Origin: Pseudanabaena sp. M085S1SP2A07QC | GTDB taxonomy: Bacteria > Cyanobacteriota > Cyanobacteriia > Pseudanabaenales > Pseudanabaenaceae | NCBI GenBank assembly: GCA_020404895.1 | Contig: JADBWK010000016.1 | Coordinates: forward strand, 1-64,000 | DNA length: 64,000 bases | Direction of reading: 5' to 3' | Part shown: in pieces, positions 2,308 to 4,365 of the stretch | Layout: every line of letters starts with the position of its first letter | How positions within the stretch are numbered: the first letter of the stretch is position 1 | The notes under the pieces: generated by a model | What the model was told of the DNA's origin: nothing | The model's input: the letters and a program-made list of their open reading frames with translations, nothing else | The model's database searches: none | Position numbers and translations under genes: made by a program

Positions 2308-4365
2308 GTGACTGAAATATTCCCCAATCTTGAAACTCAAGCAAGATTACTAGAACTACGCAAAGTACTGCATCGCAATAGTTATGAATACTATGTCCTT
2401 GATGCTCCTACAATGGAGGATTCAGTCTATGATGCGCTCTATCGGGAATTGCAAACACTTGAGGCGCAATATCCACAACACATTACTCCTGATAGCCCCA
2501 CGCAGCGCGTAGGCGAGAAACCAACTACTCAGTTTGTATCAGTTCAGCATCACATTCCGCTGTTTAGTTTGGAAAATGCCTTTGTTTCTGGTGATGTAAA
2601 AGCTTGGCAAGAAAGATGTCAAAAGGGATTAGTTAGTACTTCCAACGGTTTTTTAGATAGTGTTTGTGAATTGAAGATTGATGGATCGGCGATCGCATTA
2701 ACCTATGAGTATGGGGTCTTAGTTCGTGGAGCAACTAGAGGCGATGGTACATCAGGAGAAGATATTACTCCTAACATTAAAACCATTCGTTCCATTCCCT
2801 TAAGATTAAATTTGGAGAATCCACCCGATCACCTCGAAATTCGCGGTGAAGCATTCTTACCGATCGCTGTTTTTGATGAGATTAACCAAGAGCGATCGCA
2901 GCAGGGAGAGGCTCTATTCGCCAACCCTCGCAACGCCGCCTCAGGAACTCTTCGTCAACTCGATTCCCGCATCGTCGCCAAACGTCGTCTTGATTTTTTT
3001 GCTTATACCATCCATATCAATCAGGCAGATTTTGCGAAGCAAAATCTGCCTGATATTTCTTCTCAATGGCAAGCTCTAGAATTCCTCAAAAAAATTGGCT
3101 TTCGCGTAAATCCAAATAAACGACTCTGCAAATCCGTACAGGAATTGCAAGAGTACTATGACTTTTGGTCAACGGAACGGCTCAAACTTCCCTATATGAC
3201 TGATGGGATGGTGATGAAGCTGAATGACTTCTCTCAACAAGAACAACTTGGTTTCACCCAAAAGACTCCCCGTTGGGCGATTGCATGGAAATATCCCGCC
3301 GAAGAAATGCCCACGATCATCGAATCTGTTACCGTGCAAGTAGGTCGCACAGGCACACTTACACCAGTTGCCGAATTACGTCCAGTCTTGCTAGCTGGAA
3401 CTACAGTATCAAGAGCAACTCTCCATAATAGCGATCGCTTAGCCGAGCTAGATTTACATCTTGGGGATACAGCGATTGTGCGCAAGGCTGGAGAGATTAT
3501 TCCTGAAGTAGTGCGCGTGCTGCCTGAGTTGCGACTTAATGGCGCAATTCGTTTTGTAATGCCCATCCACTGCCCTGAATGCAGTCAACCAGTTTTTAAG
3601 CCAGAAGATGAATCGGCTACCCGTTGCATTAATTTGCAATGTCCTGCGATCGTGCGCGGTGCGATCGAGCATTGGGTCAGCCGTGATGCGCTGGATATTA
3701 ATGGAATTGGCGAGAAATTAGTCAGGCAATTAGTTACTGAAAATCATATAACTTCCGTTGCCGATCTTTACGATCTGACTAGTGACCAGTTACAAACCCT
3801 TGATCGGATGGGGCAAAAATCTGCCGACAAGATCATTGCTGCGATCGCCCAATCCAAAAATAAGCCTTGGGCGCGAGTCCTCTATGGTTTGGGTATCAGG
3901 CATGTGGGCAGCGTAAACGCTCAAAATATTGCGGATAATTTTCCAAATGTGGAGTTATTAGCAAGGTCTACGCCCGAAGCGATCGCTTCTATTTTTGGCA
4001 TCGGTGAAGAAATTGCTCAAGCTATTTATGAGTGGTTTCGCAAAGAAGCTAATCAGAATTTAATCCAGCGTTTGCAAGTTTCAGGATTACAGTTTGTTAG
4101 CGAGAAGAAAGATAATCAGGCGATCGCTATAAATCCCAATATCACTGGTAAAACTTTTGTGGTCACTGGGACATTGCCAACTCTAAAGCGAGATGAAGCT
4201 AAAGCTCTCATTCAATCCGCTGGCGGAAAAGTCACAGACTCTGTGAGCAAAAAAACAAATTATCTAGTTGTTGGAGCCGATGCTGGCTCTAAGTTAGAAA
4301 AAGCTCAATCTTTGGGAGTGCAATGTCTTTCAGAAGAAGAGTTATTAAAATTAATTGACTTGTAA
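2308..4365 (+). CDS. ligA: NAD-dependent DNA ligase LigA
   Basis: Seals nicks in replication and repair using NAD+. The 685 residues show the usual order: N-terminal Ia domain, adenylation domain with the KIDG motif (Lys123 is the AMP-accepting residue), OB fold, four-Cys zinc finger (Cys422, Cys425, Cys440, Cys445), helix-hairpin-helix region, and a BRCT domain from about residue 605 to the end. The start is GTG at 2308, since no ATG fits; a near-repeat GTGACTGAA occurs 11 bases upstream but runs into a stop. Length is normal for the family apart from a few extra residues near 238-249, which are encoded by a perfect palindrome (see 3020-3054). Cytoplasmic, essential in bacteria. Confidence 0.98.
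3020..3054. repeat. Perfect 16-bp-arm palindrome inside ligA
   Basis: ATCAGGCAGATTTTGC is followed by GAA and then its exact reverse complement. It has the same architecture as the intergenic palindromes of this window (long perfect arms, GAA loop) but is read through in frame, encoding about 12 residues in a probable loop of the adenylation domain. There is no T-run, so it is not a terminator. Confidence 0.9.

Follow-up and report, generated by a model that had tools for sequence, protein, structure and literature searches.

Coding inverted repeats in yeast undergo arm homogenisation and flips of the spacer, including gaa/ttc flips (Abraham and Hazkani-Covo 2021, PMC8604942). In E. coli, quasipalindrome mutations followed with lacZ reporters have shown that template switching makes quasi-palindromes perfect (PMC7202029). 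Template switching has also been proposed for the coding palindromes of mitochondrial genes in Nematomorpha (PMC6649704), and RNA hairpins have been described as created and maintained by template switching (Monttinen and Loytynoja 2022, PMC8794818). In Rickettsia, palindromic elements (RPEs) are pieces of palindromic DNA that are translated within housekeeping genes, according to the account of Ogata et al. 2000 given in PMC10969869. We found no paper on the Pseudanabaena palindromes in a search that covered the cyanobacterial small-dispersed-repeat literature thinly. Here we describe a palindrome in the ligA gene of a Pseudanabaena species. On the evidence of sequence comparisons, we consider it likely that this palindrome, as an old coding inverted repeat that has been kept perfect, is best explained by in-place template switching between its arms.

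The stretch of DNA that we analyzed (the window) is 64,000 nucleotides long and lies within contig C68 of a 4.8-Mb genome. Genes in it are simple open reading frame (ORF) calls. The features that concern us are listed in Table 1. The ligA product matches E. coli LigA (PDB 2owo) with an E value of 8.8e-180, and orthologues are present in 56 of 58 genomes, those of the relatives being full-length. A preliminary description of this DNA had reported a perfect palindrome with 16-bp arms and a GAA loop at 3020-3054, encoding about 12 residues of LigA. We have confirmed this: the arms of ATCAGGCAGATTTTGC-GAA-GCAAAATCTGCCTGAT are 100% complementary, and the palindrome spans codons 238-249, in frame, in an ORF without stops. 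In the AlphaFold model, the site forms the connection between strand 229-236 and helix 253-262 in the adenylation domain, and the loop lies away from the conserved LigA motifs. The DNA hairpin was computed to be stable on either strand, at about -18 kcal/mol. As a DNA mini-hairpin, d(GCGAAGC) has unusual stability, which may favor the GAA loop in the ligA palindrome.

Table 1. Positions in the window of ligA, its palindrome, and two dispersed elements used for comparison
Feature	Position	Strand	Basis
ligA, NAD-dependent DNA ligase, 685 aa, GTG start	2308..4365	+	ORF; PDB match; orthologues
Left arm of palindrome, ATCAGGCAGATTTTGC	3020..3035	+	covaries with right arm in relatives
Loop GAA; in relatives TTC, TTT or AAA	3036..3038	+	
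Right arm of palindrome, GCAAAATCTGCCTGAT	3039..3054	+	
Variable loop of adenylation domain, hotspot of palindrome and repeat turnover	3016..3063	+	protein alignment, predicted secondary structure
MITE-like element, ~110 bp, with TATAGCAA.. inverted ends and GAA-loop palindrome at 58097-58143	58066..58178	+	comparison only
Second dispersed palindromic element, ~116 bp, TTC loop	52398..52515	+	comparison only; many copies

In a protein alignment, cyanobacteria differ in the length of the LigA stretch that FFAYT.H and SQW enclose. We found the palindrome, either perfect or with one or two mismatches, in 12 of 25 Pseudanabaena ligA genes (one genome per species, source species included). Eleven of these 12 carriers have an intact GC-NNN-GC core and arms of 12-16 bp, and the remaining one, G019, has an altered closing pair. 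Five relatives have no palindrome: G001 and G018 have 8 residues fewer at the site, G024 has an unrelated stretch, and in G004 and G015 the stretch is as long as in the carriers but its codons are non-palindromic, with at most a 7-bp inverted repeat. Eight more have other sequence at the site. Four of them (G022, G012, G005 and G016) retain the right half with at most a few changes, and their left half is different sequence; in the first three, which have had the left arm replaced, the right arm has 0-1 changes and is almost intact. The other four (G002, G021, G023 and G025) have a longer insert and lack the palindrome. In most of these eight species the replacement sequence is a repeat of the GGGAGAGGGGCTGGGGGTGAGGG type (peptide SGRGAGGEG), which is dispersed in 24 of the 25 genomes searched and has 373 matches in one cyanobacterium. 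We also observed that this repeat is translated in frame as SGRGAGGEG in the ligA loop at L006, L007, L009 and L061-L064, and that a hairpin similar to it, CCCCCTCTCCC, lies within a 1061-aa gene of the source genome (C181, near 48477). In other cyanobacterial genera the segment is mostly 17-29 residues long (50 at the longest), and its codons are unrelated.

Among the carriers, variants of the two arms come in pairs: CAGGCAG/CTGCCTG, CAGGAAG/CTTCCTG, CGGGAAG/CTTCCCG and CATCCAG/CTGGATG. Changes on both sides were found in 4 of the 16 arm pairs, in eight such cells, among 13 distinct sequences. The arm covariation score of 0.139 was reached by none of 500 shuffles, and when partners were slid by 1-3 columns the score was 0.022-0.050 and pairing dropped to 29-43%. 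The double-sided changes include the amino-acid replacements A/E, Q/R and P/D. In G020, for example, both arms change the protein, with HPD on the left and LDD on the right in place of QAD and LPD. The arms have stayed near-perfectly paired while ligA diverged by about 20% at the nucleotide level.

The loops of 11 species are only GAA (G000, G017, G014 and G011), TTC (G010, G003 and G006), TTT (G013, G007 and G020) and AAA (G008), a set that is closed under reverse complement. When independent substitution was simulated at three rates, with 100,000 runs for each, no run produced such a closed set containing both orientations. At least six loop changes, at least three of them changes of orientation, were counted on a three-gene species tree (ligA minus the loop, a gyrA-like gene and a topA-like gene) in which the backbone of the genus has no resolution. 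G017 and G010, which are 8% divergent in ligA, have arms that differ at one base and loops of GAA and TTC, respectively. Thus, the ligA palindrome combines a perfect or near-perfect repeat with a short spacer, and shows arm homogenisation and spacer inversion between relatives, the traits that we tested for a coding inverted repeat under template switching.

A new palindrome is present in the ligA loop of G005 (Pseudanabaena sp. SR411, L008), where ACCATCCATTTCCCCAGTCCCTCT-CCC-AGAGGGACTGGGGAAATGGATGGT has arms of 24 bp. At this site 24 of 24 positions pair in G005, compared with 14 of 24 and 13 of 24 in its sisters G022 and G012, and the length is equal in all three. The spacer is CCC in G005 versus GGG in the sisters. 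The upstream Thr-Ile-His codons, which are well conserved in the genus, recur as their reverse complement in the new outer part of the right arm. The G005 palindrome was evidently built, with its spacer inverted, from a quasi-palindrome that the sister species still show.

Taken across the genus, the aligned genes record persistence of the palindrome, double-sided changes, spacer inversion and the making of a new palindrome from a quasi-palindrome. We propose that during replication the nascent strand would switch to the other arm, so that a change in one arm would be copied to its partner and the arms homogenised. A switch through the loop would invert the 3-nt spacer, from GAA to TTC or from AAA to TTT. 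The segment would be a dispensable connecting loop of LigA, and so both arms and the spacer could change the protein without harm. We infer that the process is template switching by the polymerase and not some other exchange between the arms, as we do its replication intermediate, enzymes and frequency. The palindrome would presumably be neutral, with no hairpin function required.

Hairpins of related form are abundant outside genes. The window contains 26 perfect hairpins with arms of at least 11 bp, and three dinucleotide shuffles of it contained none. In 464 kb sampled from the source genome there are 181 perfect hairpins, 99 of them with a 3-nt loop. The loop is GAA in 26, TTC in 17, TTT in 14 and AAA in 6 of these (63 in total), and 86 of the 99 have GC/GC closure. 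Apart from the one in ligA, almost no 3-nt-loop hairpin in the sampled 464 kb lies in a credible coding sequence. A GTTGCGGCGC core of intergenic palindromes has 132 copies. The MITE-like element of Table 1 has the ends TATAGCAATGTAAG../..CTTACGTTGCTATA adjoining TA, and a 40-nt pattern from it has about 141 matches in the source genome. Of 56 sampled copies, 45 are identical over the 103 non-loop bases, and the family has therefore been recently amplified. These 45 copies, which were not chosen at random, differ only in the loop (12 GAA and 33 TTC), a finding that we counted in favor of template switching. Among the first 100 matches listed genome-wide, the loop is GAA in 45, TTC in 52, AAA in 2 and GAG in 1. 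The GAA/TTC split may be explained by two source lineages rather than by flipping; in a four-gamete comparison of the loop with other variants, most copies had no variant and the few variants were linked to one loop.

Other dispersed sequences were seen in the same window. The second element of Table 1 and one of ~95 bp at 52308-52402 lie side by side, and both have many copies in the source genome and in related genomes. At 52640-52830 and at L159, L160, L163, L164, L166, L167 and L171, species-specific hairpins stand beside one conserved stretch. Their arms are unrelated between species and their GC-NNN-GC closure is mostly the same, and these loci may reflect rapid hairpin turnover at a position that is possibly a terminator. 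Around ligA, the window (1-64000) shares almost no gene order with G017, G019, G008 and G022; this scrambling extends even to species that are 95-96% identical in LigA. A synteny comparison of the window's intergenic hairpins failed because of this scrambling.

The preliminary description had regarded the ligA palindrome as looking just like the intergenic ones and as a copy of a palindrome that spreads by insertion. The likeness extends to the loop set and the closing pairs of the hairpins in the 464 kb, but not to the arm sequence or the overall size of the element. In a search with the central 23 bases of the palindrome, allowing up to 2 mismatches, the arms were found no more than once per genome, in ligA, in the source genome and 15 congeners (16 Pseudanabaena genomes); the same search gave one unrelated 2-mismatch site outside ligA, common to G005 and G012. 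Therefore, no donor family is seen. The MITE flanks, the TATAGCAA.. inverted ends and the TA target site that are present in the intergenic copies are absent around 3020-3054, and no target-site duplication is visible there. An in-frame insertion of a mobile palindrome of the intergenic type, comparable to a Rickettsia element and since diverged, would fit the 8-residue-shorter genes of G001 and G018, the shared loop set and GC closure, and the entry of another dispersed repeat into the LigA loop in other lineages. We nevertheless consider it improbable, given the failure to find the arms elsewhere in the searched genomes, the missing ends, flanks and duplication, the same-length G004 and G015 genes without a palindrome, and the similar loop lengths in other genera. 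Thus, the spread of a palindrome by insertion is not supported as the source of this one, whose first origin could have been either an old insertion or formation in situ. Other parts of the preliminary description fared better. Tolerance of a palindrome in an essential gene is borne out by the intact ligA ORF and by the 12 carriers among 25 species, and the site does vary within the genus, with 8 residues fewer in two species. The general idea that repeats invade the LigA loop also holds, through the SGRGAGGEG-type repeat in other species. Orthologues of the same length with unrelated codons, which it had named as evidence against insertion, exist in part: the G004 and G015 genes are of equal length and have non-palindromic codons, and the segments of mostly 17-29 residues in other genera have unrelated codons.

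We also compared the palindrome with defined element classes. Viewed as a MITE of the intergenic family, it has neither the terminal inverted repeats nor the TA target site. Like an RPE, it is translated in frame in an intact gene, but it has no dispersed family in the 16 Pseudanabaena genomes searched. A REP or REPIN with a RAYT does not fit either: the arms are single copy, and the sole Y1_Tnp gene found has no such palindrome nearby. The hairpin is followed directly by ATTTCTTCTC, inside the gene, with no T-run, and therefore it is not an intrinsic terminator. Because each class fails on a tested defining feature, the palindrome belongs to none of the RPEs, MITEs, REPs or terminators.

If the hairpin were itself selected, through mRNA pausing or stability or as a DNA site, the compensatory changes would have been kept by selection. 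Silent codon differences among carriers are 0.11 in the arms versus 0.38 in the rest of ligA, which makes the arms about threefold more conserved, and only 1 of 645 ligA windows (0.16%) is as low in silent change. The inner arm bases GATTTTGC/GCAAAATC hardly vary among carriers, and the RNA fold is strong (z -6). The low silent change and the constant inner bases could reflect selection for the hairpin. The low silent change could also be a by-product of copying between the arms. The reading frame sets third positions of one arm opposite second positions of the other, so a silent change in one arm, once copied, would become an amino-acid change in the other and would then be removed. Against selection, the hairpin is absent in five relatives and half or wholly replaced in eight others, and this loss or replacement argues that the hairpin is not needed. 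The sequence and orientation of the loop are free, there is no T-run of the kind an intrinsic terminator has, and double changes such as A/E, Q/R and P/D would be costly if each base changed on its own. We therefore judge a selected hairpin to be unlikely, on a par with insertion. Coincidental codon choice in a peptide that permits a palindrome is far less probable still. The peptide N[QRH][AEP]DFA.QNL[PD]D is indeed conserved among carriers. However, given the peptide and codon usage, the chance of a perfect 16-bp palindrome is only about 2e-4 in the source genome and near 1e-4 in each species, and of 3,000 random 12-mers taken from proteins of the source genome just 1 passes even a check of position-wise compatibility. 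Together with the covariation of the arms across species, this effectively refutes coincidence.

Template switching between the arms, our preferred reading, leads to a more tentative proposal: the ligA palindrome may be a long-lived, self-perfecting palindrome in an essential gene, in which arm coupling slows silent evolution and makes LigA residues (Ala-Lys/Ala-Ser) phase-variable. If this were true, hairpin template switching would be unusually frequent in Pseudanabaena and would also shape its intergenic GC-NNN-GC hairpins, of which there are roughly a thousand. A stem with compensatory changes is commonly read as proof that its structure is selected. In ligA, compensatory change is strong and silent evolution is slowed in a dispensable loop of an essential enzyme, and mutation alone could explain both. 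As a natural bacterial case with more than 20 sequenced relatives, the locus allows correction, flipping, formation and loss to be placed on one tree, and arm correction and spacer flipping at the ligA site could be measured directly in culture.

The known systems resemble this locus in different respects. RPEs, as accounted for in PMC10969869, likewise place palindromic DNA in frame inside bacterial housekeeping genes; by the description in PMC6649704, they are elements of about 150 bp that occur in dispersed families and in which palindromic identity is lost, whereas the ligA arms are single and near-perfect. The Nematomorpha genes (PMC6649704) share with ligA perfect inverted repeats in conserved genes, maintained and with both arms translated, but theirs reach 284 bp and occur in many mitochondrial genes, while the ligA palindrome is 35 bp in the variable loop of one bacterial gene. 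In the RNA hairpins of PMC8794818, as may be the case in ligA, a single event is enough to create or mend a perfect stem and so produces apparent compensatory changes; those stems are functional and belong to RNA genes, whereas ligA is protein-coding. The G005 palindrome resembles a natural counterpart of the quasipalindrome conversion in E. coli (PMC7202029), a system of reporter assays that, unlike ligA, involves no long-lived coding palindrome. The yeast coding inverted repeats (PMC8604942) are similarly short, with spacers of 2-5 nt and amino-acid replacements as a by-product. They were compared among strains of one species, while the arms of the bacterial ligA palindrome have drifted in concert over about 20% ligA divergence. 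In the REG2-type yeast event (PMC8604942), arm conversion and spacer inversion occur together, and the change in G005 matches this event.
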